Source of the DNA: Haloarcula mannanilytica
GTDB lineage: Archaea; Halobacteriota; Halobacteria; Halobacteriales; Haloarculaceae
Assembly (NCBI RefSeq): GCF_005406125.1
Contig: NZ_BIXZ01000009.1
Location: forward strand, 62,001 to 126,000
DNA length: 64,000 nt
Direction: 5' to 3'
The notes under the pieces were generated by a model. The model made no database searches and had not been told where the DNA came from. It was given only the letters and a program-made list of their open reading frames with translations. Positions 35,076 through 61,570 of the stretch are shown here, one piece after another; positions within the stretch are counted from its first letter, which is position 1, and every line of letters begins with the position of its first letter. The position numbers and the translations under genes are program-made.

Positions 35076-35435
35076 CAGCGGGGACTGAAACGTCAGGACA
35101 ATCATCCCTGTCTGAGGAAACTACTTCCAGAGCCCTGGTTCCGTGAACGGAGGCGGATTACCCAATGGGCTCGTTATATCGTGCTCCATCCCCCACCCAC
35201 CGCCCCCGACGCCCGGTGACGATGACTCCTGCCGGTCGATCATCGTGATATCCTGCGACTCGGTCTCGACGAGGCCGAAGAGTGGATCGCAGAACTATGT
35301 ACGAGTAGACAATTCCTCCGCAGTAGCGTTTATCGCGCCGACCAAGGGTGACGGCGCTCAGCGCGATGGGCACCACCACGAGAGCCGCCGTGGTGTCCAG
35401 TCTGGTGTCAGCTGAGTGCAGTCACAGGTGAATCC
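35076..35435. other. Intergenic region with GC-hairpin element and a startless open stretch
   Basis: 360 bp. Holds the GC-hairpin leader element at 35328-35357. A short plus-strand frame ending in LRLGLDEAEEWIAELCTSRQ and FLRSSVYRADQG (stop near 35350) looks protein-like but has no start codon and is only about 38 codons, perhaps a gene remnant. Confidence 0.4.
35328..35357 (+). promoter_or_regulatory. GC-hairpin leader element (GHL) copy 1
   Basis: GTTTATC tract, stem GCGCC (35335-35339) / GGCGC (35353-35357), loop containing AAGGGTGA. Lies 78 nt before the gene at 35436. Confidence 0.55.
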
Positions 35436-35924
35436 ATGTCTACGTTCAGTAACTCCGAGGCAGCCAGTGCATCGCCGTCAGAAAATCACACGAGTCCATC
35501 GAGAGATACGGAGGATACAGATTCGCAGCCATCGTGGTCAGACGATGCAAGCAGCGAGGATGGAACGCCAACGCTCCGAATGAACCAATGTCCGGAGTGC
35601 GGAGCCCGTCGCTTCGTCTCAAAACTTCTCGTGTACGAGGTTACAGGCTACGACGAGGGCGGCAAGCAAGAGTTTCGCCGCCAGCACGTCCGGGCAGAGT
35701 TCGAATACACCTGCAGCGAGTGCCAGACGACACTCCGGACGCTTCCCGCAGATCGCCGTGACTACTACGACGAAGTCGCGGTCCTCGAAACGGAACGGCG
35801 GGCAGCCCTCCGTGATCAACTCCGCCAGCTGGGGCGGCGGTTCTGGCGGCGTCTCGCAGCGCGGACAACGTGGCTGGCACTCGCACTCGTTACACTCGTG
35901 ACCGGGCTCGTGATCGCACTCTAA
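35436..35924 (+). CDS. Zinc-ribbon protein with C-terminal TM
   Basis: 162 residues. Disordered Ser/Asp-rich N-terminus (about 1-48), then a zinc ribbon with CPECGARRFVSKLLVYE and, about 40 residues later, CSECQTTLRTLP; a basic helix (RQLGRRFWRRLAARTTW) leads into a C-terminal TM (LALALVTLVTGLVIAL). Probably a membrane-tethered metal-stabilised adaptor. Preceded by GHL copy 1, no known family. Confidence 0.7.
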   Translation: MSTFSNSEAASASPSENHTSPSRDTEDTDSQPSWSDDASSEDGTPTLRMNQCPECGARRFVSKLLVYEVTGYDEGGKQEFRRQHVRAEFEYTCSECQTTLRTLPADRRDYYDEVAVLETERRAALRDQLRQLGRRFWRRLAARTTWLALALVTLVTGLVIAL

Positions 35925-36100
35925 CAGCCCGAAGGAAGAGAGCTTCCTCGCTATCGACTCTTGCAATCCACCGGAATACGTAGGGTGCCATCGGCGGTGG
36001 AGAGCTAGCCCATCAGCAGCAGGAAAGGTACGGGTTCGGCGTACGTGCTCAGGAAGAGCAGGGCCCAAACGGCCGGGCGAACTAACTGTCCGTGATCGTC

Positions 36101-36128
36101 GTTCGCGCCCGCAAAGGGGCGAGGCGCG
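36101..36128 (+). promoter_or_regulatory. GC-hairpin leader element (GHL) copy 2
   Basis: CGTTC then stem GCGCC (36106-36110) / GGCGC (36124-36128) around CGCAAAGGGGCGA; 29 nt before the gene at 36158. T-tract is weak in this copy. Confidence 0.5.
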
Positions 36129-36157
36129 CTCGAAGCGCGTCCAGAGCGTGAGTTTTC

Positions 36158-36448
36158 ATGACTGGACCTGATATCCTCGACGACACGACGGACGACTACG
36201 AACGACTCGAAACCGAACTCGTTGCCCAGGACCGGGATGCGGCCCGGGTCTCGACGGCGGACGTCGACGAGCGGAGTGCCCGCCGTCTCGTTGATGAACT
36301 CATTGAGGACGATGTGGTGACGCCAATCCCTGACCACCGCATTCTCGTCCACGAGCCCAGTAGCAAGCCCTTCGACTCGATCACCCAACTCGCCGTGTTC
36401 CATCGCGGCTGGCAGGCCGCCACCGACGCCGACGCGGAGGACGACTGA
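36158..36448 (+). CDS. Small acidic protein, coupled to zinc-finger protein
   Basis: 96 residues. Helix-rich with DVDERSARRLVDELIEDDVV and a beta-like VTPIPDHRILVHEPSS, which could be a degenerate winged helix. Its stop overlaps the ATG of the next gene (ATGA). Found behind GHL copy 2. No known domain; likely a plasmid-encoded conserved haloarchaeal protein. Confidence 0.6.
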   Translation: MTGPDILDDTTDDYERLETELVAQDRDAARVSTADVDERSARRLVDELIEDDVVTPIPDHRILVHEPSSKPFDSITQLAVFHRGWQAATDADAEDD

Positions 36449-36783
36449 TGCAACAGACGCTTTCCGGGTGTGCGTTCTGCGATTCACCGCCTGGGTCAGA
36501 GATGGGCGAGGCGCATACGTGGGGGAAAGACGAACGGGTGACACACCCAATCTGTGTCGACTGTGCCGTCCAAGAGCGGCCGGATCCCGAGGAGCGCGAC
36601 CACCACACCTGCGACGGGTGTGGGCTCGTCGTCGACGCCCTCGCAGCGCTCACGCGCTTCCGTGTAGAACTCGGCCATCTCGAGGGGCCGCTGCAATTTT
36701 GCGAGCGATGTAGTCCCGGCGGACTTGCAACGTACTGGACGCGCGACCTCGAGGAGCATCTTGTCCAAGAGGTCAGCAAATAA
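36448..36783 (+). CDS. Multi-zinc-finger protein
   Basis: 111 residues with four CxxC pairs: GCAFCDSPP, ICVDCAVQ, CDGCGLVVDAL and FCERCSPGG, enough for two zinc sites arranged as a cross-braced or tandem ribbon. An acidic, otherwise globular protein; no TM. From memory it resembles haloarchaeal DUF7558. Translationally coupled to the small gene at 36158. Could bind nucleic acid or act as a partner in protein complexes. Confidence 0.7.
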   Translation: MQQTLSGCAFCDSPPGSEMGEAHTWGKDERVTHPICVDCAVQERPDPEERDHHTCDGCGLVVDALAALTRFRVELGHLEGPLQFCERCSPGGLATYWTRDLEEHLVQEVSK

Positions 36784-36855
36784 AGAGGAGAGCGATGTCC
36801 GTACGTCACCCCCCGGAACAAGGGCTGAGCCCGTCATTTAAATATTTGTAGCACG

Positions 36856-38458: not shown

Positions 38459-38971
38459 GACGCGTCTCGTGAAAGCCCTCGGCCGCTCGGCATCCCGCGC
38501 CCCACGCTGCGCTCCTCGTTCCTCCGGTGCTAGCGGGGTCGGGGGACGACCGAGGCGGCCTCGCCCTTTCTGAGTCCGCCAGGATGTCGGCTGTGTCACT
38601 AACCGTCGGTCCCGGTTGACCAGTGGTTCTCTCCGGCTCGCCCCCCGCGCCGCGTTCCGCCCTCCGCGTCGCTCGCGACCGACCATTCCGGGCGTGCGGG
38701 CGCTCTCCGCACCGCCCGCGCCCGTTCCGGGCTAAAATGGATGTGCCCTCGGCGCCAGCGGGTATCCCCGTCGGTTGCGCCCCTTGCGGGCTTTCGCGTT
38801 CCAGGGCTTGGTGCCGCCTGCGCTGTCGCGCGCCACACCACGGCGCGCGTTCTCGGCGACAGTCGCCCTGGACACGGACCCGCACATCGGGCCGGACACG
38901 AGCGGGCATATCCCGCTGGCCGCTCGCTCCGGGCGGGTCGGCGCGCGGTGCTGGATGGTCGTCCGCCTCGG

Positions 38972-39026
38972 GCGCGCTCTCGCTCGCGCCCACAGGGCGC
39001 TCGCGAAGGCGCGAGCGAGAGCGCGC
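38972..39026. repeat. Perfect 19-bp inverted repeat
   Basis: Arms GCGCGCTCTCGCTCGCGCC (38972-38990) and its exact complement (39008-39026) flank 17 bp. It would fold into a very stable hairpin in RNA or extrude as a cruciform in DNA. It ends 96 bp before the OB-fold gene. Confidence 0.9.
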
Positions 39027-39060
39027 AGACGAGTCTGTCGGTCGTTGTCGTCGAGGAAAT

Positions 39061-39082
39061 CCGCGATGTTGTAGCATCGCGG
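39061..39082. repeat. 8-bp hairpin CCGCGATG-N6-CATCGCGG
   Basis: Perfect inverted repeat with loop TTGTAG, 40 nt before the ATG at 39122, in the same GC-rich tract. Confidence 0.7.
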
Positions 39083-39121
39083 TGTCGGGCGCGTGAGCGC
39101 CTTCAGGTCTACGTGAGACCA

Positions 39122-39988
39122 ATGTCAAGTAACAACGCCACCAGTAATGTAGTTTCGGTCGATGAACAGGCTTTCGAGAAACACGAAGAAACGCAGGTCG
39201 ACGAGGACGGATTCGAGGTCGTCGACGAGACGCCGGAGTTCCGGGCGACGGTCGACATGGAAGTGCAGGCAAAAGTCGATTCCAACCACCCAGATGCGCG
39301 GGTCGAAGAAGGCCCGGATCACCTGTACGGGAAGACCCTCGAACAGGAAGAGCGCATCGAGGCACGGGAGGCCGAGTTGGAGCACATCAGTGCCCAGGCG
39401 GAACTCAGTGAGCAGGAGGGACGCGCGAAGCGGACGCGGGAGGTCGTCGTCGAGCAGTGTGGCCGAGACAAGCCCGAACCGGTGGAGCGCACAGATCCCC
39501 GAGAGAAGCTGACGCAGGAGGAACTCGCGGCGGTCAACGAGCAAGCAATGCGGATCAGCGACGAAGTGCAGGGTGGCTGGTCGAGAGCAGTTGTCGCGAA
39601 GCAGCTGGCCGAGAAGGTGCAGCGCGGCCAGGACGTGACGAAGGCGGTGCTGGAGACGTTGGAGGAGCAGAAGGCGGTCCCCGGTGCAATCGTGCCCATC
39701 GCGGATGTGCCGGACATCCCGGTCGGTGAGGTGACGGTCCAGGGTGAAATCACTGAGCTCTGGACTCCAAGTGACAACTCAATTCAACAAGTCGGGCTCA
39801 TCGAAGACGAGAGCGGGCGAACGAAATTCACGGTCTGGGAGAAGAGCGGGAAAACGGTGGTTCGAGAGGGGCAGACGGTCAGATTCAGAGCGGTCAAGAA
39901 GAACTGGTACCAAGGTCGGTGCAGTCTCGCCATCACGGGCTGGAGCAGGATCGAGTTCCCGGAGCGCGGTCGGTGGTGGGAAGAATAG
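39122..39988 (+). CDS. OB-fold (RPA-like) single-stranded DNA-binding protein
   Basis: 288 residues from ATG 39122 (MSSNNATSNVVSVDEQAF); the frame is open far upstream but that sequence is random-looking and GC-rich. A long charged helical region (about 60-190) precedes a C-terminal OB-fold: VGEVTVQGEITELWTPSDNS, GLIEDESGRTKFTVWEKSGK, EGQTVRFRAVKKNWYQGRC, typical of archaeal RPA/SSB modules. Likely coats ssDNA during plasmid replication or transfer. A T6 run (40007-40012) after the stop marks termination. Confidence 0.78.
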   Translation: MSSNNATSNVVSVDEQAFEKHEETQVDEDGFEVVDETPEFRATVDMEVQAKVDSNHPDARVEEGPDHLYGKTLEQEERIEAREAELEHISAQAELSEQEGRAKRTREVVVEQCGRDKPEPVERTDPREKLTQEELAAVNEQAMRISDEVQGGWSRAVVAKQLAEKVQRGQDVTKAVLETLEEQKAVPGAIVPIADVPDIPVGEVTVQGEITELWTPSDNSIQQVGLIEDESGRTKFTVWEKSGKTVVREGQTVRFRAVKKNWYQGRCSLAITGWSRIEFPERGRWWEE

Positions 39989-42897: not shown

Positions 42898-43034
42898 ACT
42901 GGCTCCTCGCATAATGGACACTCCGCGTAGACCGCTCGGTGGTCGTCCTTCTCGTACTCGATGAGGAGCATACCTGCGGGTATCTCGGTGTCGCAAGCCG
43001 GACAGGTTCCGAGGATCGATTGTTCCGACGACAT
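42885..43034 (-). CDS. 49-residue zinc-binding protein
   Basis: ATG 43034 reads MSSEQSILGTCPACDTEIPA and includes a second pair (ECPLCEEPVHPR): two CxxC motifs about 30 residues apart form a mini zinc ribbon. From memory, similar to haloarchaeal DUF7837. The longer frame to 43145 crosses the neighbouring promoter. Its 3' end overlaps the CARF-like gene's end by 13 bp in antisense, a compact convergent arrangement. Confidence 0.65.
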   Translation of the reverse strand: MSSEQSILGTCPACDTEIPAGMLLIEYEKDDHRAVYAECPLCEEPVHPR

Positions 43035-43123
43035 GGGGGATGGAGCGCTGGAGCGTGTGACACTGTATTCCAGGCTCCAAGTGTAATAACGGAGTATACG
43101 TTCAAAAGTTCGATCCAAGCGAA

Positions 43124-43582: not shown

Positions 43583-43599
43583 TCCTGTCCTATCATGTC

Positions 43600-43713: not shown

Positions 43714-43751
43714 CCGACTCCCTGTGTAGGCACTTCAGTTCTGCATAGAGT

Positions 43752-43777
43752 CTATTGTCCCCTCAATGGGTGAGGGG
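43752..43777 (+). promoter_or_regulatory. GC-hairpin leader element (GHL) copy 3
   Basis: TCTATTG tract, perfect 7-bp stem CCCCTCA (43759-43765) / TGAGGGG (43771-43777) around ATGGG; 39 nt before the TFB start. Contains the GGGTGAGGGG core. Confidence 0.55.
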
Positions 43778-43816
43778 CTCGCTGTACTGGCGAGTATCCT
43801 GAACACGGTGAGAACG

Positions 43817-45728: not shown

Positions 45729-45741
45729 AGACGACGTCAAA

Positions 45742-45782: not shown

Positions 45783-45839
45783 CAGAAGCCAGCTCGCGAC
45801 CACCCGACGATACCACACCTGCTGACTGCCCGCCGGTGT

Positions 45840-45869
45840 TTTTCGGCGCCGAGAATTGGCGGAGGCGCA
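45840..45869 (+). promoter_or_regulatory. GC-hairpin leader element (GHL) copy 4
   Basis: TTTTTCG, stem GCGCC (45847-45851) / GGCGC (45865-45869), loop GAGAATTGGCGGA. Ends 3 nt before the ATG at 45873, so the start would be within or just after the structure. Confidence 0.55.
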
Positions 45870-45872
45870 CAC

Positions 45873-46112: not shown

Positions 46113-46142
46113 GTTGCTCGCCCCCTGAAAGGGTGCGGGGGC
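46113..46142 (+). promoter_or_regulatory. GC-hairpin leader element (GHL) copy 5
   Basis: TTGCT tract, perfect 7-bp stem CGCCCCC (46118-46124) / GGGGGCG (46136-46142), loop TGAAAGGGTGC. 25 nt before ATG 46168. Confidence 0.6.
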
Positions 46143-46167
46143 GCGAGACCGCTCCCGAGAACAATCC

Positions 46168-46548: not shown

Positions 46549-46550
46549 CG

Positions 46551-46580
46551 TTGTTCGTCCCCCGGGAGGGGTGCGGGGCG
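46551..46580 (+). promoter_or_regulatory. GC-hairpin leader element (GHL) copy 6
   Basis: TTGTTCG then CCCCC (46559-46563) pairing with GGGG (46575-46578) or with the inner GGGG; loop core GAGGGGTGC. Begins 2 nt after the previous stop and ends 36 nt before ATG 46617. Confidence 0.55.
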
Positions 46581-46616
46581 ATCCAGTCGTGGGTCGTCCT
46601 GCAAGGAGATTGTTCA

Positions 46617-50845: not shown

Positions 50846-50966
50846 TTCTGCGGCGGGAAGTGCGGGCAGGACGCTCTTCTTTCGGGACTTACCTCCGCTA
50901 CATCGAGACTAGTTGTGGTTTGTCTGGGGCAGAAAGGACTGAGCCCCACCGTTGGCTCGTGATTTG

Positions 50967-51389: not shown

Positions 51390-51410
51390 GAATCGACCGC
51401 TAGATCAGGG

Positions 51411-51441
51411 TTTTTCGAGCGCCGGCGATGGGTGCCGGCGC
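51411..51441 (+). promoter_or_regulatory. GC-hairpin leader element (GHL) copy 7
   Basis: TTTTTCG, perfect 8-bp stem GCGCCGGC (51419-51426) / GCCGGCGC (51434-51441), loop GATGGGT. 55 nt before ATG 51497. Confidence 0.6.
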
Positions 51442-51496
51442 AGCAGGAGCGAACGATCAACCACTCCCGGTGCGTCGGCGTTTCGAGGTGTTCGAG

Positions 51497-51988: not shown

Positions 51989-51991
51989 CAG

Positions 51992-52357: not shown

Positions 52358-52383
52358 TTGATAGGAGCGTATCTGCGGTGACG

Positions 52384-52410
52384 TTTATTTTGGGCCGGAA
52401 TGGGTGGCCC
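52384..52410 (+). promoter_or_regulatory. GC-hairpin leader element (GHL) copy 8
   Basis: TTTATTTT, perfect 5-bp stem GGGCC (52392-52396) / GGCCC (52406-52410), loop GGAATGGGT. Stem composition is swapped relative to other copies. 24 nt before ATG 52435. Confidence 0.5.
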
Positions 52411-52434
52411 GTCTCAATCGGGCCAGATTCACAG

Positions 52435-52830: not shown

Positions 52831-52852
52831 GGGCAAGCAGTCCCTGTGACTG

Positions 52853-52881
52853 TTTTTCACCCCCTGAGGGGTGCGGGGGTG
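52853..52881 (+). promoter_or_regulatory. GC-hairpin leader element (GHL) copy 9
   Basis: TTTTT, perfect 7-bp stem CACCCCC (52858-52864) / GGGGGTG (52875-52881), loop TGAGGGGTGC. The 5' CCCC can instead pair with the loop GGGG (CCCC-tga-GGGG). 28 nt before ATG 52910. Confidence 0.65.
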
Positions 52882-52909
52882 CTCGAACGAGTAGCTCCCG
52901 AACAGACCA

Positions 52910-53311: not shown

Positions 53312-53334
53312 ATATCAATCACCGAAGGTAACCC

Positions 53335-53613
53335 ATGTCAGAACATACCCAACCATCTCGTGCGGATGACGAATCGACCGCAGCCAGTGAACAGACGACA
53401 CGAACGGAGTACGTCGAACGCAGTGACGTCGGCGTCTCCCTCACCGTGAAGCTTACTCGCGGGACGGGCACCCGCGATCAGGACAAAATCGTGGCCAAAG
53501 CGAAAGGCAAGACTCTCGAAGACGCTCGCGAGGACATGGAGATTCTTCGGGAGTACATCCACGATCTCGCTGAGGACGCCCGCCAGATCCAACCCGAGGA
53601 AGAAGACGAGTAA
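53335..53613 (+). CDS. Small acidic protein (DUF7389-like)
   Basis: 92 residues. Disordered N-terminus, then TEYVERSDVGVSLTVKLTRG, TRDQDKIVAKAKGKTLEDAR and a helix REDMEILREYIHDLAEDARQ. Beta-hairpin plus helix arrangement resembles haloarchaeal DUF7389 as remembered. 23 bp after the DUF6166-like gene, likely the same transcript. Function unknown. Confidence 0.62.
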   Translation: MSEHTQPSRADDESTAASEQTTRTEYVERSDVGVSLTVKLTRGTGTRDQDKIVAKAKGKTLEDAREDMEILREYIHDLAEDARQIQPEEEDE

Positions 53614-53625
53614 CGGCGGGGGCTG

Positions 53626-53656
53626 TTTTTTGTCGCCTCAGCAGTGACGGAGGCGA
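53626..53656 (+). promoter_or_regulatory. GC-hairpin leader element (GHL) copy 10
   Basis: TTTTTTG, perfect 7-bp stem TCGCCTC (53633-53639) / GAGGCGA (53650-53656), loop AGCAGTGACG. Loop core is diverged but stem and T-tract are kept. 6 nt before the GTG at 53663. Confidence 0.5.
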
Positions 53657-53662
53657 TCATCA

Positions 53663-53884
53663 GTGAGCAATCCAGACGGTCAAACAACAGACGCAAGCGA
53701 TCTTTCGCCAGAACAACGGCTCGAGCCATCGAATACGCGACTCATCAACGCTGGTATCGTGACGATCAACAATATGGAGACGCTGCGAGCCTGCGTCGCC
53801 TACGAGAACGCGAATCAGCAACGGGTCCAGATCCTCCGCCAGCTTGAACAGCGGGCCAGCGAACTCCGCGCACAAGACGATTGA
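53663..53884 (+). CDS. Small hypothetical protein
   Basis: 73 residues from GTG 53663. LEPSNTRLINAGIVTINNME, then a helix TLRACVAYENANQQRVQILR continuing QLEQRASELR, a probable coiled coil. Overlaps the next frame at its stop codon (TTGA). Function unknown. Confidence 0.55.
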   Translation: MSNPDGQTTDASDLSPEQRLEPSNTRLINAGIVTINNMETLRACVAYENANQQRVQILRQLEQRASELRAQDD

Positions 53885-53937
53885 CCCAACGCCCGGAGGT
53901 GTCTGTCGGAGCCTCGGTGGGTGGAGGCTCAATCCAG

Positions 53938-54237
53938 ATGAGCGATCGACCAGAGATCGAGATTCAACGACAGACCGCATTCGGTGACGATGGCCAACTC
54001 GAAGTAACCGAAACAAGCGTCGAGACCTCGCTTGAGGACTTCGGCGCTGACGTGGATCATCGTGACCGGGATTCACGTCTTGATCAGCCCGAGGCGTGTG
54101 AGTTCGGCGTCGACGATCGACCCGAAGTTGAGCAAACATCCGAGGGAGATCAGTCAACACTCTTCGCTGATACGGACGAGGATCAGCAGACCCTCGCTGG
54201 CGACGATGCAGCCGCTCGCTGTCTCTTCGAAGAATAG
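53938..54237 (+). CDS. Acidic low-complexity hypothetical protein
   Basis: 99 residues from ATG 53938 (MSDRPEIEIQRQTAFGDDGQ); a TTG at 53881 overlapping the previous stop would add 19 residues and give translational coupling. Very acidic, with EVTETSVETSLEDFGADVDH and a repeated DQQTL/DQSTL pattern towards the end. No fold recognised; start uncertain. Confidence 0.5.
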   Translation: MSDRPEIEIQRQTAFGDDGQLEVTETSVETSLEDFGADVDHRDRDSRLDQPEACEFGVDDRPEVEQTSEGDQSTLFADTDEDQQTLAGDDAAARCLFEE

Positions 54238-54325
54238 GCTTGCCTCTATCAGTTGGTTGTCTGATGAATTGTTATACTGAATTCTAACTTTGAAGCGACG
54301 TTGAGGGTCTAATAGCCGGTGGTGG

Positions 54326-54353
54326 TTTTTCGACCCCCAGCAGGGGTGCGGGG
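54326..54353 (+). promoter_or_regulatory. GC-hairpin leader element (GHL) copy 11
   Basis: TTTTTCGA, CCCCC (54334-54338), loop AGCAGGGGTGC, GGGG (54350-54353); inner alternative CCCC-agca-GGGG. 24 nt before ATG 54378. Confidence 0.6.
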
Positions 54354-54377
54354 AATCCGAACGCCCGCATTCAACCG

Positions 54378-55064
54378 ATGGAGACGAATTCGACTACCGA
54401 CCCACGAGCAGTCGTACAGGATACGGATGAGCGATGTCAGGCGAGTACAGACCGCGTCGAGTACGTCGGGATGCGTGTCGACGGAACGCCAGTTGTCCTG
54501 AACCTCACCGCACACGAACGCCTCTCCCCCCATCAAAGTCTCGGTCTCGTGCGGCATAGCCCGGCGGGATTCGACTGGGGCTACGTCGGGAGCGGACCGG
54601 CACAGCTCGCCTGTGCGCTCCTCCTCGATTATACCGACGACGAAACTGTCGCCCAGCATCACTACATCCAGTTCCGCAACGACGTGGTCAGTCAGCTGGT
54701 GTGTGATGGCCCGGCCGACTGCTGGCACCTCACCGGGGAGGATATCGAGGCGGCACTCGCTGAATTCGAAGAGTACCGAGCACTCACGCCAGATGGTGGG
54801 ACGCCGTCATCGTCACTACCGGCGAACTGGAGTGCGGTGAGCCGGACAGATCGGACAGTCTTCCAACGTCGGGATATCGACCACTACGTCGTCCTCGCCG
54901 AAGGGAGCGAGGAGTGGTTGATCATACTTTGTGCGCAGGGGGACCGGGCGTATCCCGCCCCACTCGACCATCGAACACTTCCGGTCGAGAACAATCCTGC
55001 TTCAACCGTGCAGGCACTCGTCGCTGAGAGTAACGATCTCGTCGAGCCAGAGGAGGACATCTGA
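54378..55064 (+). CDS. DUF6166-like protein with extra C-terminal domain, copy 2
   Basis: 228 residues. Residues about 25-130 repeat the DUF6166 signature of the gene at 52910 (RVEYVGMRVDGTPVVLNLTA, VRHSPAGFDWGYVGSGPAQL, ALLLDYTDDETVAQHHYIQF). A second domain follows (SRTDRTVFQRRDIDHYVVLA, EWLIILCAQGDRAYPAPLDH). The two copies are diverged and differ in length, so an old duplication or separate acquisitions. Coupled to the next gene by TGATG overlap. Confidence 0.75.
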   Translation: METNSTTDPRAVVQDTDERCQASTDRVEYVGMRVDGTPVVLNLTAHERLSPHQSLGLVRHSPAGFDWGYVGSGPAQLACALLLDYTDDETVAQHHYIQFRNDVVSQLVCDGPADCWHLTGEDIEAALAEFEEYRALTPDGGTPSSSLPANWSAVSRTDRTVFQRRDIDHYVVLAEGSEEWLIILCAQGDRAYPAPLDHRTLPVENNPASTVQALVAESNDLVEPEEDI

Positions 55065-55219
55065 TGGAGAACATCCGACTCTCGCGGGCCACGTACCAAC
55101 TCATCGAACGCGCCGTCACGGCGCTGGAGTGCATCGGCCGAGAACTCGAGCGATACAACGACCGGCATGAGCGAACAGCTGGGAAAGACACAGATGAGAC
55201 GAATCCCAGCGAATCATGA
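55064..55219 (+). CDS. 51-residue hypothetical protein
   Basis: ATG overlaps the previous stop (TGATG) and the gene ends overlapping the next start (ATGA), so it is coupled on both sides. Sequence MENIRLSRATYQLIERAVTA, LECIGRELERYNDRHERTAG: one long amphipathic helix, perhaps a dimerising coiled coil. The double coupling is strong evidence that this short gene is real. Confidence 0.68.
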   Translation: MENIRLSRATYQLIERAVTALECIGRELERYNDRHERTAGKDTDETNPSES

Positions 55220-55752
55220 CTGACGAAGCGACGCTTGACTACTTCGAGGGCGAGAATTCAGCCGGTGAGTCTCGCTCGCTCACGCTGGAAGAGCGACTCC
55301 TCGCCCCGATATCCCCGTCCATCGGTCTGCGGGTGATTCCCGGTCGCGAGGATCCGCTCTATCTCCAAAATCGGGGAACAGAACGGTATCTTTTCCGCGA
55401 CGATCACGACCGGTGGTTCATCCTTCAACCCTCGGCGAAGGACTCAGAAGAGGCGTTCGTCCGCTGGGTGTATCTCCCAGCAGACCGGCCCGAACGGCTG
55501 GCACAGTCAGCGCTTCGTCGACGGACAGTGACCGGCTATGATTATGTTCAGCGGTCGGCCGCACCAGATCCAGTCAGGTCGACGGTGACGGCGATGTTCG
55601 TCACGGAACGCTGGCCTGAGACCGCCTACGAGTGTGGGTCGTGTGAGACGCTGTTCGACACGTCACGAGAGCACGCCCTCCACTGCTGGGACGACCATCC
55701 GTGGGTGCCAAATCCTGAACAGGTGCGCCGTCGACGCGAAGCCGACGAGTGA
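55216..55752 (+). CDS. Hypothetical protein with C2H2-like finger
   Basis: 178 residues. N-terminal globular part (LTLEERLLAPISPSIGLRVI, RYLFRDDHDRWFILQPSAKD, FVRWVYLPADRPERLAQSAL) and a C-terminal finger YECGSCETLFDTSREHALHC with WDDHPW following (two Cys, then Cys/His). Third gene of the coupled group 54378-55752. May bind nucleic acid through the finger. No known family. Confidence 0.65.
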   Translation: MTDEATLDYFEGENSAGESRSLTLEERLLAPISPSIGLRVIPGREDPLYLQNRGTERYLFRDDHDRWFILQPSAKDSEEAFVRWVYLPADRPERLAQSALRRRTVTGYDYVQRSAAPDPVRSTVTAMFVTERWPETAYECGSCETLFDTSREHALHCWDDHPWVPNPEQVRRRREADE

Positions 55753-55792
55753 ATTGAAGAGCCGAAGCCAGGTGTCGGGACCGTCCAGATGA

Positions 55793-55833
55793 TTAACCAA
55801 CAGTACTGGATTTTTGGGTAGAATGTTGGTTAA
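55793..55833. repeat. Interrupted palindrome PAL copy 3
   Basis: TTAACCAACA (55793-55802) and TGTTGGTTAA (55824-55833), perfect 10-bp arms, 21-bp spacer; followed 7 bp later by GHL copy 12. Confidence 0.9.
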
Positions 55834-55840
55834 GAGGTTG

Positions 55841-55871
55841 TTTTTGCGCCCGTGAGAGGGGCGCAGGGCGC
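55841..55871 (+). promoter_or_regulatory. GC-hairpin leader element (GHL) copy 12
   Basis: TTTTT, perfect 6-bp stem GCGCCC (55846-55851) / GGGCGC (55866-55871), loop GTGAGAGGGGCGCA. 49 nt before ATG 55921, with GAGGAG ribosome-binding site nearer the start. Confidence 0.6.
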
Positions 55872-55920
55872 GTGATGAGAGCGCTGTCGCGGGTGACGAA
55901 TTCAATTTCGAGGAGACAAG

Positions 55921-57081
55921 ATGAAAGACCCAGAATCCAGAACCGTGTTCGCCGGCGTCGACGGACGAACCGATACAGAACTACCCGACTGGTACCGCCG
56001 GAAGAAAACGGTCGACGAACCGAAGTCCTTCGCCGAGACGATTCGTGACCTCCCCCAGGCCGTCGAGACGACAGTCGCATACCGGAATCCCTACTCCGAC
56101 GAGTGGGTCGAAACGGATCGCTTCAACGCCTTAGTCGAGCCGACGAGAGCGCGCGACCACGCGACAGACGATGAGCCCGGCGCAGACCCATTATTTCACG
56201 TCCCCACGGACAGTTACGCGATCATCAACCCGGTGGACGTGTACAGGCCCTTGGAAGAGGTCCTTCGCGAGGAGACCATCGACGGGACGCCGCTGGATGA
56301 CGTGATGTTCGGCGAAATCCGGCGCTACCGGGGCGGTGGCGAGGTCCATATGGACGTGATGTTCGACGGCCTCGAAGTCCGGCTTCCCGGCCGGGCGGAC
56401 CCGATCACGATGGCCGTGACCTCCGGCTACGACTTCTTCGGTGAGCACGCAGTCTACGTAGAGGGATTCGCTCAGGACGGGTACTGCTCGAATTCGATGC
56501 GCTCGCTCACCGATAAGGAGGTCATCAAGCACGTCGGGGACGTTCGGGACTTCCGGACCTGGTGGGAAGAGATTCTCGCACAGGTCGAGCTCGTCGCTGA
56601 CGATCTCTTCGAGTTCATCCGAGATGCGCAGGAGATTGATCTCGAGTTCTCCGAGCTCCCGTTCACCGTCACCGAATTTTACAGCCTGCTGGGATTCCCG
56701 GACTATCTCGCAGAGCGTGCTGCCGAGGACGCCGAAGCGAACGCAGCGTCGCCGTTTGCAATCGATATGTGGACGCTGCACTCCGGCGCGACATACGCGC
56801 TCACCCACTTTTTCCAGGGGAAAGAGGGCACGTCCCTCGACCAGTACGTCCGCGTTGCGAACGACATCCTGTTCAACCCGGAGGGCACCATCGAGCGCGT
56901 CGAACGAGCCTACGAGGAGCAGCTGGAGGCGGACGGCGACGACGGGTCGCAGGCGTCGCTCGCCGGCGAGCGGGCGCTCGCGAGCATCGAGCGTGTGAAC
57001 GAAGACCTGCAGGCCAACGTCGAGCAGTTCGAAGCACGTGAAGAGGCGCTTCGCGAGCGGTTCCAGCAGGTGACGAACTAG
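55921..57081 (+). CDS. DUF932-like plasmid/phage protein
   Basis: 386 residues. Sequence order suggests the DUF932 ('phage/plasmid-like TIGR03299') family: VAYRNPYSDEWVETDRFNAL, YAIINPVDVYRPLEEVLREE, GGGEVHMDVMFDGLEVRLPG, then MAVTSGYDFFGEHAVYVEGF and YCSNSMRSL, followed by helical segments and a C-terminal coiled coil (about 345-386). The family is nearly always on mobile elements, function unknown. Ribosome-binding site GAGGAGAC precedes the ATG. PAL copy 3 and GHL copy 12 lie upstream. Confidence 0.7.
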   Translation: MKDPESRTVFAGVDGRTDTELPDWYRRKKTVDEPKSFAETIRDLPQAVETTVAYRNPYSDEWVETDRFNALVEPTRARDHATDDEPGADPLFHVPTDSYAIINPVDVYRPLEEVLREETIDGTPLDDVMFGEIRRYRGGGEVHMDVMFDGLEVRLPGRADPITMAVTSGYDFFGEHAVYVEGFAQDGYCSNSMRSLTDKEVIKHVGDVRDFRTWWEEILAQVELVADDLFEFIRDAQEIDLEFSELPFTVTEFYSLLGFPDYLAERAAEDAEANAASPFAIDMWTLHSGATYALTHFFQGKEGTSLDQYVRVANDILFNPEGTIERVERAYEEQLEADGDDGSQASLAGERALASIERVNEDLQANVEQFEAREEALRERFQQVTN

Positions 57082-57108
57082 CGCAGTCATCCGTTTTCGC
57101 GTTTCCAT

Positions 57109-57240
57109 ATGGCAAACGAAAACGCCCACCAGCAGTGTCCGGTCTGTGATCGCCGAATCGCGAGCGTGACAATCGTCGGGCCGAGTGAAGCAGTGGTCAC
57201 GCCGTGCGGGCATCGTATCGTTCCCCACCGACTCGACTGA
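57109..57240 (+). CDS. 43-residue zinc-finger micropeptide
   Basis: MANENAHQQCPVCDRRIASV then PCGHRIVPHRLD. CxxC plus Cys and two His (CPVCD...CGHRIVPH) fit a single zinc knuckle. Located 27 bp after the DUF932-like gene. Haloarchaea encode many such zinc micropeptides. Confidence 0.6.
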   Translation: MANENAHQQCPVCDRRIASVTIVGPSEAVVTPCGHRIVPHRLD

Positions 57241-57288
57241 AGGCCTGACTCACCGTTGAGCGGACACGGTGGCTACGTCGTCTCTATA

Positions 57289-57330
57289 TTAACCAACGAT
57301 GTGCGGGTTCTGGAGACTAGTGTTGGTTAA
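57289..57330. repeat. Interrupted palindrome PAL copy 4
   Basis: TTAACCAAC (57289-57297) and GTTGGTTAA (57322-57330), 9-bp arms, 24-bp spacer; followed by GHL copy 13. Confidence 0.9.
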
Positions 57331-57348
57331 TAGCGGACTGCGGCTCCG

Positions 57349-57378
57349 TTTATTGCCCCTCAGAGAGGGTGCAGGGCG
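57349..57378 (+). promoter_or_regulatory. GC-hairpin leader element (GHL) copy 13
   Basis: GTTTATTG, stem GCCC (57355-57358) / GGGC (57374-57377), loop with GAGAGGGTGCA. 22 nt before ATG 57401. Confidence 0.55.
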
Positions 57379-57400
57379 GCTGGATTCGCCCTCGCAGCCC

Positions 57401-58408
57401 ATGTTCATGTCGCTCGAAATCAACTCCAGCAGCAGTACTGATCGCGACATCACCGCTGCCAGACAAGCCGACGTCGTGGCGTTCCTCCATCGAGCGCCGT
57501 TCGCTCTGGATGCGTATCGGCTCGGATTCTTGCCTGGGTTCCGAGAAGACTGTGGGTACCAGCAGACCCAGTATCAGGACCTGAACATCCCCGTCGGGAT
57601 GCTCGATAACGACTTTCGGAATCCCGATCTGGATCGGTACGTCGCCCGATTTTTCGAATACGAACCCAAGGTTGGCGTGATCGGAGATGTGTACGAGGGA
57701 GACGACGTCGACGAGTACGTGGCCGCTGCCCGCGAAGTTCAGGCGAGTTATCCCGACGCAGAACTCATCATCGTCCCAAAGTGTCGCGAGGTGATCGACA
57801 CGATCCCGAACGACCTCGTGCTCGGTTACTCGCGGGGGTACGCCGACCGATTGGCGCACGAGTTCTCCGAGCCGACCGACTGGCGTGGCCGTCGTGTTCA
57901 CATCTTGGGGGGCAGCCCACCGAAACAGTGGGACGTCATCCAGCAGTTGACCCGACCGACACTCACGGACGACCCACCGGCCGACATCGTCGGCCTCGAC
58001 TGGAACGGGCTGCATCGCGGCGCGCAGTTCGGGGAGTTCTGGACGGCTGACGGCTGGGATGATAGCGGTCGTGACGCCTCCCACGTCACAGTTCGGAAGA
58101 CAGTCCGACACAGTCTCGCCCGCATCAAGGCCTTCTGGCAGTCTCACGGCGTCTGGCCCGACTCAACGCCACATAGCGACATCCTCGAAATCGAGTACGA
58201 GGGTCCGTCACCGACCAATCTCGATAGCGCTGTGTGTACCGAATGCGAAGCGAACGTCTGGACGACTCGACGCGGTCCCTTCATCGCTGAGTATGATACC
58301 GGCGTGCTCTGTGGCTACTGCAGCTACGAGTGCTACTTCTCACATCGCCATCGGAACAACCTGGAGGAGATCGCCAGCGAGCAGAGCGTGTACATTCCAC
58401 CGGCGTGA
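57401..58408 (+). CDS. DUF6610-like protein with C-terminal zinc ribbon
   Basis: 335 residues from ATG 57401 (MFMSLEINSSSSTDRDITAA); ATG 57407 is equally possible. Barrel-like alternation: PFALDAYRLGFLPGFREDCG, FFEYEPKVGVIGDVYEGDDV, AELIIVPKCREVIDTIPNDL, RVHILGGSPPKQWDVIQQLT and IVGLDWNGLHRGAQFGEFWT resemble the TIM barrel of tRNA-guanine transglycosylases. The C-terminus has a zinc ribbon CTECEANVWTTRRG ... LCGYCSYECYFSH. From memory this is DUF6610. The gene at 40994 may be a distant relative. A nucleobase-related role is inference. Confidence 0.72.
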   Translation: MFMSLEINSSSSTDRDITAARQADVVAFLHRAPFALDAYRLGFLPGFREDCGYQQTQYQDLNIPVGMLDNDFRNPDLDRYVARFFEYEPKVGVIGDVYEGDDVDEYVAAAREVQASYPDAELIIVPKCREVIDTIPNDLVLGYSRGYADRLAHEFSEPTDWRGRRVHILGGSPPKQWDVIQQLTRPTLTDDPPADIVGLDWNGLHRGAQFGEFWTADGWDDSGRDASHVTVRKTVRHSLARIKAFWQSHGVWPDSTPHSDILEIEYEGPSPTNLDSAVCTECEANVWTTRRGPFIAEYDTGVLCGYCSYECYFSHRHRNNLEEIASEQSVYIPPA

Positions 58409-58420
58409 CGCTACGAGTGG

Positions 58421-58448
58421 TTTTTCGCGCCCCGGAGGGGGCGAGGGC
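58421..58448 (+). promoter_or_regulatory. GC-hairpin leader element (GHL) copy 14
   Basis: TTTTTCG then either CGCCCC (58428-58433) / GGGGCG (58438-58443) around GGAG, or GCCC with the outer GGGC (58445-58448). Two exclusive hairpins share the C strand. 35 nt before GTG 58484. Confidence 0.6.
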
Positions 58449-58483
58449 TCGATCCAAAAAGTCCTCCGAGAAGGTGATTTTCC

Positions 58484-58831
58484 GTGAGTCAACAACAGCG
58501 TCCGAACGATGTCTCGATTGACGACATTCCAGTCGACGTATCGAACACCCAATCAGGCGAGGTCGACCCCGCCGAGGTACCCGAGGAGATTCGGTCGATC
58601 ACTCGTGGACTCGCAAGCGAGCAACCGCCGACGAATCCGCTCGTCGTCCTGAAGGCCGCCCGCTGGTGGTATATACATGGTAAGGGCGGGACCGATCCTG
58701 CGTTCCAGTGGGCCATCGAGTGGGCACGACACCTCGCGACGGACACGCCGAGCGATGTCGACCAGTTCGACGCGTTCCTTGAGTACCTCGTCACGGTCGG
58801 CTTCGCTGACGAGAAAGCAGCGCTCCGATAG
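58484..58831 (+). CDS. Small conserved hypothetical protein
   Basis: 115 residues from GTG 58484. Disordered acidic start, then helices EEIRSITRGLASEQPPTNPL, VVLKAARWWYIHGKGGTDPA and FQWAIEWARHLATDTPSDVD, with aromatic-rich WWYIHGKGG. Soluble. No domain recognised. GHL copies lie both before it and after it. Confidence 0.62.
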   Translation: MSQQQRPNDVSIDDIPVDVSNTQSGEVDPAEVPEEIRSITRGLASEQPPTNPLVVLKAARWWYIHGKGGTDPAFQWAIEWARHLATDTPSDVDQFDAFLEYLVTVGFADEKAALR

Positions 58832-58866
58832 CAGCTCCGATCTAAACCCCCCGAAGTCGCGCCGAT

Positions 58867-58897
58867 GTTTATCGTGCGCCCCCGAGGGGTGCGGCGC
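58867..58897 (+). promoter_or_regulatory. GC-hairpin leader element (GHL) copy 15
   Basis: GTTTATCG, outer stem GCGCC (58876-58880) / GGCGC (58893-58897), inner alternative CCCC-ga-GGGG; loop core GAGGGGTGC. 37 nt before ATG 58935. Confidence 0.65.
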
Positions 58898-58934
58898 GTC
58901 CTGACTTCTCGGAGACGTCGTCGTACTCGATGTG

Positions 58935-59873
58935 ATGCAATCCATGATGACAGCCAGTGAGTCGGGGGTCTCGTTCGAGGAGACCGACACCCGACACGAC
59001 AAGATGCACAGTACGATCGAAGACTGGATCGACGATCTCGTCGCAGACGTCGACGAGGCAAAAGCCAGCCAACAGTTCCAGGAGTGGCTCGATGTCCAGT
59101 CCCGATTCCACGACTATTCTCATCGTAACACCCTCCTGATCAAACTCCAGTGTCCCGAGGCGACCCGCGTGGCGGGCTACAATACGTGGAGATCGGAGTT
59201 CGACCGGCACGTCCAAGAGGGCGAACAGGCGATCTGGATCTGGGCACCCATTATTACGAAGCAGTGCCCCGAGTGCGAGAACTCACCGAGCTACCACGAG
59301 CAAAGCGACTGTGACTATGACGAGACATCGCCCGAGGAGTGGTCGAAAGGACTGGTTGGATTCAAACCAACGGCAGTCTTCGACGTGTCTCAAACCGAGG
59401 GCGAACCGCTACCCGAGCTGGAAACCGAGGCAGCTGGTGACGCCGACGACCTGGTGCCAGCGCTCCTCCATGCGGCAACTACTCTCGATATCGACGTCCG
59501 TGTCGTCGACGCTGCCGAGTGGGAGCATGGCGACGCGAAAGGCGTCTGCAAACACCGGACTCTCCACGAGGGCCAGCCCGTCGTCGAAGCGAAAGCCCGC
59601 TCAAATCAGGCCGATCTCGCGGTGACATTGGTTCACGAGTACGCCCACGCGCTGCTTCATTTCGATGGCGACGACGAGCCCGAGCGCGCAAAACGCGAGG
59701 TCGAAGCGGAAGCCGTTGCGTACATCGTCGGGCGGTATTTCAACCTGGATACGAGCGGGTCAGCGTTCTATCTTGCCGCGTGGCAGGACGACGATGCGGA
59801 GAGTATTCAGGAGCGTCTCGGCCGGATCAGTTCGACCGCTCAGGAAATCATCGACACAGTTGTAGAGGGCTGA
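58935..59873 (+). CDS. ArdC-like anti-restriction protein with zinc metallopeptidase domain
   Basis: 312 residues from ATG 58935 (GTG 58932, ATG 58944 and 58947 also possible). N-terminal ArdC/LtrC-type ssDNA-binding region: QFQEWLDVQSRFHDYSHRNT, CPEATRVAGYNTWRSEF and WIWAPIITKQCPECENSPSY, with a Cys-rich insert (ECENS..CDYD) probably binding zinc. The C-terminal half has the gluzincin motif LVHEYAHALLHF (HExxH) followed by EVEAEAVAYIVGRYF, as in M78/ImmA-like peptidases. ArdC proteins protect incoming plasmid DNA from restriction in bacteria; a role during conjugative entry here is inference but fits the window. Confidence 0.82.
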   Translation: MQSMMTASESGVSFEETDTRHDKMHSTIEDWIDDLVADVDEAKASQQFQEWLDVQSRFHDYSHRNTLLIKLQCPEATRVAGYNTWRSEFDRHVQEGEQAIWIWAPIITKQCPECENSPSYHEQSDCDYDETSPEEWSKGLVGFKPTAVFDVSQTEGEPLPELETEAAGDADDLVPALLHAATTLDIDVRVVDAAEWEHGDAKGVCKHRTLHEGQPVVEAKARSNQADLAVTLVHEYAHALLHFDGDDEPERAKREVEAEAVAYIVGRYFNLDTSGSAFYLAAWQDDDAESIQERLGRISSTAQEIIDTVVEG

Positions 59874-59891
59874 ACACCCCCTTCCCGGCTG

Positions 59892-59933
59892 TTAACCAAC
59901 GCCGGAGGGTACTCTGTCGACATTGTTGGTTAA
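59892..59933. repeat. Interrupted palindrome PAL copy 5
   Basis: TTAACCAAC (59892-59900) and GTTGGTTAA (59925-59933), 24-bp spacer. The only copy between convergent genes, so it cannot be a simple promoter element there. Confidence 0.9.
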
Positions 59934-59998
59934 TTCGTTCGGCATCCCGACCCCGTGTGTTTCGATCGGTCCCGAGACATACCCATCGACAGTCGATG

Positions 59999-60694
59999 TT
60001 ATCGTTCAGAATCGATTCGGCGCTGCTGGTCACGAAGGAACTCAACGACGGCATCGATATCCTGTTCGGGAACCGTTTGCTGTTCGAAGACTCCTTTGAA
60101 TGCATCTGCGAAATCCTCCGACGTGAGGCGGTTGAGGACAGTCTCGATGCGACCAGCGAGCTTCTCGGATTCTCCGCGATGCAGATGAGTCGCGATCCGG
60201 TCGAAATCCGCGCCAGCAGCCAGCACCACCAGATCCCGGGAGTCTGCCTTGCGGCCACTGTGAAGTTTCACGGCAAACAGCAACTCCCGTTCCGGAATCC
60301 TGGCTGTTACCGGGCGCCCGGTTCGCAGTTCCTGGGTGACGGAGTGCTGGGTCAGATAGCGATACGACCATTCAGCTTCCGTCTGGCGACAGCCCAACGC
60401 GTCGACCATCGCGTCGAACCGAACCGGATTCCCGATGTCCTTCTCAAACCGGATGGTACGGCCCTCGTAGAGCTCGTTTCGCTCGACATCGGCCGTTTTC
60501 TCGTAGCCGCGGTCGGTGAGAAGGTCCGTGTAGTCGTCGACCGCTTGGGCCGGAATGACGACGTCGACGTCCGTGGTGAAGCGCTGATTGAACGCCGCGA
60601 TCGCCCACCCACCGACGAGGACGTATGGCAGGTCAGCGTCAATGACGGCCTCCAGCGTATCCAGCAGCTCGTCTTCGCGTTCACCGAGACTCAT
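59999..60694 (-). CDS. AbiEii-like nucleotidyltransferase toxin
   Basis: 231 residues. Nucleotidyltransferase core LPYVLVGGWAIAAFNQRFTT followed by DVDVVI: the GG and DxD motifs of the DNA polymerase beta-like fold. Later KLHSGRKADSRDLVVLAAGA is typical of AbiEii/DUF6036-like toxins. Such enzymes add nucleotides to tRNA or modify proteins. Translationally coupled to the wHTH gene upstream (ATGA overlap), matching the antitoxin-toxin order of type IV AbiE systems. Confidence 0.8.
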   Translation of the reverse strand: MSLGEREDELLDTLEAVIDADLPYVLVGGWAIAAFNQRFTTDVDVVIPAQAVDDYTDLLTDRGYEKTADVERNELYEGRTIRFEKDIGNPVRFDAMVDALGCRQTEAEWSYRYLTQHSVTQELRTGRPVTARIPERELLFAVKLHSGRKADSRDLVVLAAGADFDRIATHLHRGESEKLAGRIETVLNRLTSEDFADAFKGVFEQQTVPEQDIDAVVEFLRDQQRRIDSER

Positions 60695-61365
60695 GCGTTC
60701 AAACGCGGATCCTCGTGGGACGCGTCAATATCGCGGTCGTACTCGTCAGCGATCATCTCCAACGCCGGCTCGTAGTTCACCCGGTACTCCAACATGTGCT
60801 CGATTGCATCGTCCAACGGAATGACCGGATTGCCGTCGACCCACTCGCGAGTGATGCCCCCACTCGTCGGGAACAACACGTACGAGACGGTCGCGTCGTA
60901 GTCGCTCGCATCCGGCCGCTCTTCGATCCGGCTCGGAATCCCGAACTCATCAAAGAATGCCGTCCACTGCTCAACATCCCGGTCGGCGACCTGGATGAAG
61001 ATCGGATAATCGTCGTGGCCCCGGGCGATCTGATAGCCGCCGTGGGTCCAGACGTAGACGCCGTCGATTTTCGTGTACGCAAAGGGCATCCCGGCGAAGT
61101 GCGGAATGACGTAGCCGTCGTCGATCGAGGGGGGAACAGCGCGAGAAATAGCGGCGACGAGATCGTAGTAGCGATCCCTGACAGCGTAATTCTCGATGTA
61201 GACGCCGTCCTCACGCCGGATGAAGCCTGCGTCCTCCAACCGCTCGATCCAGTCGTAGACCCAGGAGTAGGAGCCGTCGATCTTCTGGGCGATTCGACGG
61301 ATCGAGTCGCCCGGCCGGGCCGCGACCATGATCTTCGCCGCGGTCTCGTCGACGTACTCCATCAT
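60691..61365 (-). CDS. AbiEi-like winged-helix antitoxin/regulator
   Basis: 224 residues. N-terminal wHTH: DETAAKIMVAARPGDSIRRI, QKIDGSYSWVYDWIERLEDA and GFIRREDGVYIEN. A larger C-terminal domain (HFAGMPFAYTKIDGVYVWTH, YPIFIQVADRDVEQWTAFFD) follows. Precedes the nucleotidyltransferase with a 4-bp overlap, so an antitoxin and autorepressor is likely. The promoter region upstream has a 7-bp inverted repeat at 61419-61436 suited to a dimer of this protein. Confidence 0.75.
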   Translation of the reverse strand: MMEYVDETAAKIMVAARPGDSIRRIAQKIDGSYSWVYDWIERLEDAGFIRREDGVYIENYAVRDRYYDLVAAISRAVPPSIDDGYVIPHFAGMPFAYTKIDGVYVWTHGGYQIARGHDDYPIFIQVADRDVEQWTAFFDEFGIPSRIEERPDASDYDATVSYVLFPTSGGITREWVDGNPVIPLDDAIEHMLEYRVNYEPALEMIADEYDRDIDASHEDPRLNA

Positions 61366-61418
61366 TGCTAGTTATCGGTATCGCATCTAACGGTATTAGT
61401 CTTGTCCCCCGTATTTCC

Positions 61419-61436
61419 TATAGAGTTATCTCTATA
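61419..61436. promoter_or_regulatory. Candidate operator of the AbiE-like operon
   Basis: TATAGAG-ttat-CTCTATA, a perfect inverted repeat in AT-rich DNA 54 bp upstream of the antitoxin start (minus strand), overlapping possible TATA boxes for both directions (ATATATAATTC at 61439-61449). Confidence 0.55.
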
Positions 61437-61496
61437 CAGATATATAATTCTTGGCTCCGGTAGTCCGATCCGGCGCAGCATTCGAGCAGAAATGAA

Positions 61497-61538
61497 TTAA
61501 CCAACAGAGGATACGACTGATCGCTATTTGTTGGTTAA
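61497..61538. repeat. Interrupted palindrome PAL copy 6
   Basis: TTAACCAAC (61497-61505) and GTTGGTTAA (61530-61538), 24-bp spacer; GHL copy 16 begins 3 bp after it. Confidence 0.9.
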
Positions 61539-61541
61539 GTC

Positions 61542-61570
61542 TATCAGCGCCCGCCGAGGGGCGGAGGCGC
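61542..61570 (+). promoter_or_regulatory. GC-hairpin leader element (GHL) copy 16
   Basis: Outer stem GCGCC (61547-61551) / GGCGC (61566-61570); inner alternative CCGCC-gagg-GGCGG. T-tract replaced by TATCA. 19 nt before ATG 61590. Confidence 0.55.

Follow-up and report, generated by a model that had tools for sequence, protein, structure and literature searches.

On conjugative plasmids of the Bacillus pLS20 family, related sequences called EGeRS1 and EGeRS2 are described as being repeated ahead of ardC and other establishment genes (PMC8708921). According to that description, EGeRS1 occurs on pLS20 as five copies of 420 to 751 bp before operons, with 62 to 95% mutual identity, directly 5' of likely ribosome binding sites and rich in inverted repeats; EGeRS1-B, the one tested, is reported there to hold no constitutive promoter. 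In the leading regions of F-like plasmids, the folded elements Frpo and ssi are placed 5' of genes that share one strand, ssb and anti-defence genes among them (PMC11541004). Translational riboswitches and attenuators form mutually exclusive helices with a common arm beside a start codon. In archaea, experimentally shown natural RNA switches are very few: a 2021 account (PMC8241225) counts just one natural example determined experimentally, the fluoride riboswitch of Thermococcus kodakarensis. Here we describe a short element that partly resembles all three kinds of system. It stands ahead of start codons in a 64,000-nucleotide (nt) stretch of Haloarcula mannanilytica (the window: contig NZ_BIXZ01000009.1, positions 62,001 to 126,000, forward strand), which is part of a 144-kb contig designated C9.

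Results

The window holds 17 plus-strand copies of one element

Read 5' to 3', the element comprises a GTTTTT(C) tract (GUUUUUC in RNA), a C-rich arm A, a core B of the form RAGGGYGM, and a G-rich arm C. These span about 33 nt and are followed by an arm D that usually sits just ahead of the start codon. A first covariance model was seeded with four equal-loop copies (MAFFT on the raw copies misplaced the arms) and retrained into a model, R2, of 88 aligned rows, including 9 from the window. In an unfiltered R2 search of both strands of the 64 kb, the best 16 matches were exactly the 16 plus-strand copies named in an earlier sequence-only reading of this DNA (E values of 1.1e-9 to 0.0087). A 17th match followed at 50918-50950 on the plus strand (E = 0.033), and the match after it reached only E = 0.76. 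Seven of the 16 copies (35328, 36098, 43750, 45838, 51411, 52383, and 61539) were absent from the R2 training rows, although relatives of copy 61539 were included. The one plan which that reading had proposed for at least 16 copies was thus recovered in all of them; it was incomplete in missing arm D, and it lacked the copy at 50918. As the reading had also stated, no copy was detected in the metal-island part of the window (1-19 kb; R2, unfiltered, E ≤ 5).

Models based on sequence letters alone gave the same picture. Such a profile made 12 window matches of at least 10 bits, versus none in 30 dinucleotide shuffles combined. In 1.99 Mb of fetched DNA, which contains the window and the training rows, an nhmmer sequence profile made 460 matches at E ≤ 10 versus none in the reversed DNA, and 529 versus 10 at E ≤ 100. 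GC palindromes that arise by chance in GC-rich plasmid DNA might be invoked, since a crude regular expression (T tract plus stem) found 9 rows on the minus strand, within the range of 3 to 12 seen in six Markov sequences. The same expression returned 19 rows on the plus strand, 8 of the 16 copies included, and the reversed-DNA and shuffle controls already refute chance, to which we attach practically no weight. The regular expression is too blunt an instrument, so the evidence for the element rests on the profile models. By these the element is real, and the original observation is confirmed. The copies are as follows, with boundaries from the unfiltered R2 search and the D arm of copy 7 read by eye.

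35328..35419, plus strand: leader copy 1; element 35328-35359, arm A GCGCCG and arm C CGGCGC; distant D at 35411-35419; open reading frame (ORF) 35436-35924 follows
36098..36141, plus strand: leader copy 2; element 36098-36130; D at 36135-36141; ORF 36158-36448 follows
43750..43812, plus strand: leader copy 3; element 43750-43781, arms CCCCTCA/TGAGGGG; D at 43806-43812; plasmid TFB gene follows, ATG at about 43817
45838..45871, plus strand: leader copy 4; without a D arm, the start codon coming directly after arm C
46113..46157, plus strand: leader copy 5; element 46113-46144, arms CGCCCCC/GGGGGCG; D at 46150-46157; ORF 46168-46548
46550..46603, plus strand: leader copy 6; element 46550-46582; D at 46590-46603, the C:D helix having 14 positions, G-U included; DUF6735 gene from 46617
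50918..50958, plus strand: leader copy 7, the copy new to this analysis; arm A TGGGGC and arm C GCCCCA; D GGCTC at 50954-50958; ORF from 50967
51411..51480, plus strand: leader copy 8; element 51411-51444, arms GCGCCGGC/GCCGGCGC; D at 51466-51480; ORF about 51497-51988
52383..52425, plus strand: leader copy 9; element 52383-52414, arms GGGCC/GGCCC; D at 52419-52425; DUF7567 gene 52435-52830
52852..52898, plus strand: leader copy 10; element 52852-52882, arms CACCCCC/GGGGGTG; D at 52888-52898; DUF6166 gene 52910-53311
53626..53658, plus strand: leader copy 11; without a D arm; GTG start 4 nt past the element
54325..54370, plus strand: leader copy 12; element 54325-54357; D at 54364-54370; DUF6166 gene 54378-55064
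55840..55885, plus strand: leader copy 13; element 55840-55872; weak D at 55881-55885; ORF 55921-57081; a TTAACCAAC palindrome (see below) 6 nt 5'
57348..57392, plus strand: leader copy 14; element 57348-57380; D at 57387-57392; DUF6610 gene about 57401-58408; palindrome 17 nt 5'
58420..58466, plus strand: leader copy 15; element 58420-58452; D at 58460-58466; GTG start at 58484
58867..58926, plus strand: leader copy 16; element 58867-58900; D at 58919-58926; ArdC-like gene about 58944-59873 (ArdcN, Peptidase_M78)
61539..61582, plus strand: leader copy 17; element 61539-61573; weak D at 61579-61582; ORF 61590-62408; palindrome ends at 61538

Arm C has two mutually exclusive partners

For the pairing analysis we used the nhmmer matches, setting aside an earlier listing (300 of 367 matches). 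Sufficient flank was available for 446 of the 460, and these were grouped into 81 sequence clusters, to which the cluster counts below refer. The duplex energy of each cluster's own segments was compared with that of segments swapped between clusters, D being taken as the next 45 nt. Both pairings of arm C were strongly copy specific (A:C, z = -8.0; C:D, z = -9.7), whereas A:loop (z = -1.6) and A:D (z = -2.0) were weaker, and control segments upstream and far downstream showed no copy-specific pairing. An earlier set of 37, drawn from the first 90 of 132 matches to a preceding model, had given z = -6.8 for A:C and -4.0 to -7.5 for C:D. A slight bias remains in the A:C value because the seed rows of the letter-only profile came from a pair-aware model; arm D was part of no search model. 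The partner of D mapped to arm C: six-base slices starting at -12, -10, -8, and -6 gave z = -3.3, -7.0, -7.1, and -3.1 for pairing with D, and slices starting elsewhere no more than -1.9. An H-type pseudoknot between the T tract and the loop was rejected (T:loop, z = 0.0).

In the 41 clusters selected for strong C:D pairing, A:C was still specific (z = -6.8, p < 0.0002), and A:B and A:D were not. In the remaining 40 clusters, A:C gave z = -5.8 and A:B z = -3.1, and C:D was null. Since A:C and C:D are both specific in this one set of 41 clusters, arm C has a choice of two partners within a single molecule, and the two helices are mutually exclusive. The element therefore has the common-arm arrangement that characterizes a riboswitch expression platform, and it has the covarying, copy-specific helices of a cis-regulatory structured RNA leader. 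The sequence-only reading had noted that stems vary while pairing is kept, which agrees with our alignment (90.5% of A:C cells paired versus 66.2% when shuffled, in an alignment fitted to the structure). It saw in this the compensatory pattern of a structured RNA; copy-specific pairing bears that out, but the A:C hairpin it described is only half of the structure, the second arm D also pairing with C.

Strand bias was examined by comparing G-U with A-C pairs. Strong C:D helices (46 of 81 clusters) contained 59 G-U versus 17 A-C pairs. Over all clusters the own arms gave 87 versus 35, and permuted arms about 77 versus 47. Within clusters, C:D cells numbered 108 G-U versus 33 A-C, and the clusters showing any numbered 16 versus 11. 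A:C had no consistent strand preference (19 G-U versus 27 A-C in helices; 46 versus 28 cells; 11 versus 13 clusters). This excess suggests, though not strongly, that C:D acts as RNA of the coding strand. It disfavours the DNA-cruciform-type site that the sequence-only reading had offered as an alternative, yet the antisense scores (see Discussion), the narrow 16-to-11 count of clusters, and the lack of a consistent preference in A:C temper that judgement.

The element is tied to start codons and shows no conserved BRE/TATA-like sequence

All but one of the matches (445/446) lie on the majority strand of their own locus. In 74/81 clusters the start codon of an ORF with 60 or more codons lies no farther than 120 nt past the element, the median being 20 nt. 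A fixed strand and a fixed position relative to the downstream start codon are what a cis-regulatory RNA leader would have, and both are found here. Placement ahead of start codons had been recognized earlier, with a distance of 4 to 80 nt that we amend to about 1 to 76 nt. The layout analysis, in which a start codon was assigned for 73/81 clusters, separated two arrangements. In the first (C:D score of at least 14 and no Shine-Dalgarno [SD]-like sequence past D; 32 clusters), D ends a median of 8 nt before the start; in 10 others an SD-like sequence intervenes between D and the start. In the second (11 clusters), the start lies 2 to 4 nt past the element, which leaves no space for D ahead of it; arm C reads GGAGG in several of these, and window copies 45838 and 53626 belong to this group. 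The 16S 3'-end pattern had no match in the own genome, so the anti-SD sequence used in the SD tests is unverified for this genome.

An archaeal promoter combines a TATA-like tract with a purine-rich TFB recognition element (BRE). No conserved BRE/TATA-like sequence was found upstream of or in the tract in the 81 clusters, apart from a slight enrichment of G at -6 to -3, and the T tract thus stands without a conserved BRE. Some copies also accept G or C at inner positions of the tract, and the T tract was rejected as a TATA box on both grounds. They count equally against a double-stranded DNA operator or promoter with the tract as its TATA-like box, a reading for which the T-rich tract itself and the palindromic operators nearby may be cited. 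Moreover, recognition by a single DNA-binding protein would not account for arms that differ among copies of one plasmid while remaining complementary. We consider this reading very unlikely.

Archaeal termination and the factor FttA/aCPSF1 act at U-rich tracts. The element might accordingly serve in mRNA processing, insulation, or stabilization: the U tract would end or cleave the upstream message and the hairpins would shield the new 5' end, giving each gene its own mRNA. The order of U tract and then hairpin between codirectional genes fits this, a same-strand ORF ending 1 to 77 nt upstream of the element in 50/81 clusters. Such gaps are unusual, given that distal operon genes in Hfx. volcanii are described as mostly overlapping or nearly touching (PMC3986360). 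Protection alone, however, leaves unexplained both the dual pairing of arm C with A and D and the conserved core B, and we regard a processing role as unlikely, if worth keeping in view.

The element is widespread among haloarchaea

In the own genome, with 150 of 1,373 candidates scored, 21 of 24 matches at E ≤ 0.03 fell on contigs C9 (10) and C10 (11), which together make up 250.7 kb of the 4.22-Mb genome; C1 had two and C13 one. With its two copies on C1, a large contig (locus L047:4252-6094, minus strand), the element occurs outside C9 and C10 as well. The covariance search of haloarchaeal genomes that had been proposed as a check matched 218 of 292 genomes and 63 of 77 genera in a class sample at E ≤ 0.1, where at most 24 candidates were scored per genome and single weak matches will include chance ones; many genomes had 10 to 24 matches. 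An exact pattern occurred in 10/98 genomes, the own included, and in 55 stretches of an 84,980-species collection, all with haloarchaeal names; viral contigs gave no match to it. Relatives of window positions 51200-62200 were found in 116 plasmid records, and the element is carried by pNG600 of Haloarcula marismortui and pJ7-1 of Natrinema sp. J7-2. The suggestion that it marks one genetic element was therefore too narrow, given the matches on C9, C10, C1, and C13 and across haloarchaeal genomes. That no described haloarchaeal motif resembles it agrees with our searches: Rfam gave nothing at gathering score for the whole window or at E ≤ 1 for 43000-62500, and searches of open-access papers showed no description of it. 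The element is widespread in haloarchaea and apparently undescribed.

Leader genes and their surroundings

Genes behind leaders encode TFB, DUF6735, DUF7567, two DUF6166 proteins, DUF6610, and an ArdC-like protein; the scans made assigned none of the remaining leader genes to a family above cut-off, and some genes of the leader-bearing region have no copy. Among clusters with at least five distinct sequences, which were inspected, a 15-member cluster (L062:12158) is similar to copy 7 at 50918. The plasmid TFB gene (43817-44740; TFIIB Pfam match) is one of the leader genes recovered most frequently, and its product could drive plasmid promoters.

For DUF6735 homologues at 47 to 52% identity, the leader was kept in 3/3 records read. 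This bears on the idea of an attC-like recombination site, by which each gene would be a mobile cassette. Judged on anatomy, a single hairpin of variable arms ahead of many single genes in one orientation resembles such a site; the element nonetheless stays with its downstream DUF6735 gene down to that identity, at a distance tied to the start codon, and we find the idea scarcely tenable. Near the DUF6735 gene in two divergent plasmids lie genes for TRAM-domain (RNA-binding) proteins (L228:99-530 and L230:644-1054), a candidate trans factor.

Just 5' of the leader genes, at 24719-33461, lies a conjugation-like module with strong TrbL/VirB6 and weak TraG-like and HerA-like matches. MPF_T typing (PLSDB) was present for 4/6 relatives read, and MOB-suite called 116/116 related plasmids non-mobilizable; conjugation of these plasmids is plausible. 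The element could then be a single-stranded DNA structure of the Frpo/ssi kind, serving as promoter or primer site: it would fold on the strand being transferred in conjugation and allow early expression of establishment genes. The one-strand array beside the module, ArdC, a weak SSB-like match, and the typing all fit, and anti-defence genes in leading regions of bacterial plasmids are described as sharing one strand and in some cases having Frpo promoters (PMC11541004). Yet the C:D helices favour G-U over A-C on the coding strand, the position follows the start codon, and the MOB-suite calls speak against transfer. Nor was conserved promoter-like sequence seen upstream of or in the tract, although an archaeal single-stranded DNA promoter may look different. 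On balance we judge this reading quite improbable.

The SSB-like match is that of ORF 38741-39985, a below-cut-off hit to an Ssb-like OB fold that recalls leading-region SSB genes; no leader copy precedes it. A long GC-rich stretch at 38480-39100, around the start of this ORF, is a possible origin or transfer site. A minus-strand nucleotidyltransferase/helix-turn-helix pair (59999-61365) breaks the plus-strand array and may be a toxin-antitoxin-like insertion.

A second repeat, the palindrome TTAACCAAC-N22-25-GTTGGTTAA, occurs in 18 places in the own genome (C9, C10, C12, and C15) and in 147 in 101 fetched loci. Its places in the window are:

21247-21286, 45742-45782, 55793-55833, 57289-57330, 59892-59933, 61497-61538, 62527-62567: palindrome

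Because its half-sites lie about three helical turns apart, its sequence suggests an operator of a plasmid regulator. We rejected it as part of the leader element: it is upstream of 72/446 leaders, with a gap varying from 0 to 102 nt.

Discussion

These data describe a conserved element, positioned ahead of start codons, whose copy-specific pairings are mutually exclusive. We propose that it is probably a 5' or intercistronic mRNA leader acting as a bistable translational switch of the downstream plasmid accessory ("establishment") gene. The element would be transcribed within the mRNA of that gene. In one state, C would pair upstream with A, and the hairpin loop would display the RAGGGYGM core beside the GUUUUUC tract. 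In the other, C would pair downstream with D in a hairpin ending near the start codon, and A would be freed to pair with B. A common trans factor or ligand could recognize the A:C form by its U tract and core and tip the equilibrium. Many plasmid accessory genes, ArdC and TFB included, would then be switched jointly by translational gating. We lean slightly toward A:C as the OFF state because an A:C helix would necessarily overlap the initiation region in clusters whose start lies 2 to 4 nt past the element. Distal operon genes of Hfx. volcanii are described as tightly packed, with reinitiation proposed (PMC3986360), so a gap that holds structure ahead of a gene hints that the gene is controlled on its own. 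The principle is feasible, since a synthetic switch hiding the SD sequence and AUG is reported to function in Haloferax (PMC8241225).

Several observations weigh against a translational switch of this kind. In silico, A:B plus C:D is more stable than A:C by a median of 14 kcal/mol (A:C alone, median -7.1 kcal/mol), so A:C would require help or cotranscriptional kinetics. Compensatory changes within gene families are few (C:D, 2/33 clusters; A:C, 2/35), which makes the case for structure depend on comparison between families, and plain C:D mismatches occupy 68 cells in 14 clusters. The antisense strand scores high too (A:C, z = -9.0; C:D, z = -7.8). One forward frame is open from -60 to +10 in 53/81 clusters, so translation may run through the element. 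Where the palindrome abuts the element (gap of 0 or 1 nt in 8 of 57 distinct cases listed), no visible promoter is left. An SD-like match exceeded shuffles in just 3/11 short-spaced clusters, and the SD sequence is reported as not used at 5' untranslated regions of Hfx. volcanii (PMC3986360). Finally, the distance from D end to start (median 8 nt, 81% within 6 to 11 nt) is nearly reproduced with permuted C arms (median 9 nt, 63%). The D-to-start spacing is therefore not evidence, and SD bridging by the C:D hairpin was rejected as a shown mechanism.

A broader and more tentative possibility, which we would not yet expect to hold, is a plasmid-wide archaeal RNA regulon: one plasmid or host trans factor would recognize the U-tract/RAGGGYGM hairpin ahead of a dozen or more genes per conjugative haloarchaeal plasmid, flip the bistable leader, and time establishment and counter-defence genes.

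Across many haloarchaeal genera, the element recurs ahead of numerous genes on each plasmid, mostly uncharacterized genes plus ArdC and TFB. If it works as the switch proposed above, the establishment regulon of haloarchaeal plasmids would be defined at one stroke, DUF6166, DUF6610, DUF6735, and DUF7567 would gain a role by association, and archaeal genetics would gain a switch.

Compared with riboswitches, the element matches no Rfam family and has no known ligand, and we do not class it as one. EGeRS and Frpo are its nearest relatives in role, while size and anatomy differ. Unlike EGeRS1, the haloarchaeal element is about 33 nt plus D, occurs 17 times in the window, and has arms conserved in pairing rather than sequence. 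Frpo/ssi are described as carrying -35/-10 promoter sequences inside the fold (PMC11541004), whereas we saw no conserved promoter sequence here, and the G-U bias is more in keeping with RNA. A plasmid-wide regulon, if it exists, would be an RNA-made archaeal counterpart of the Frpo and EGeRS systems.

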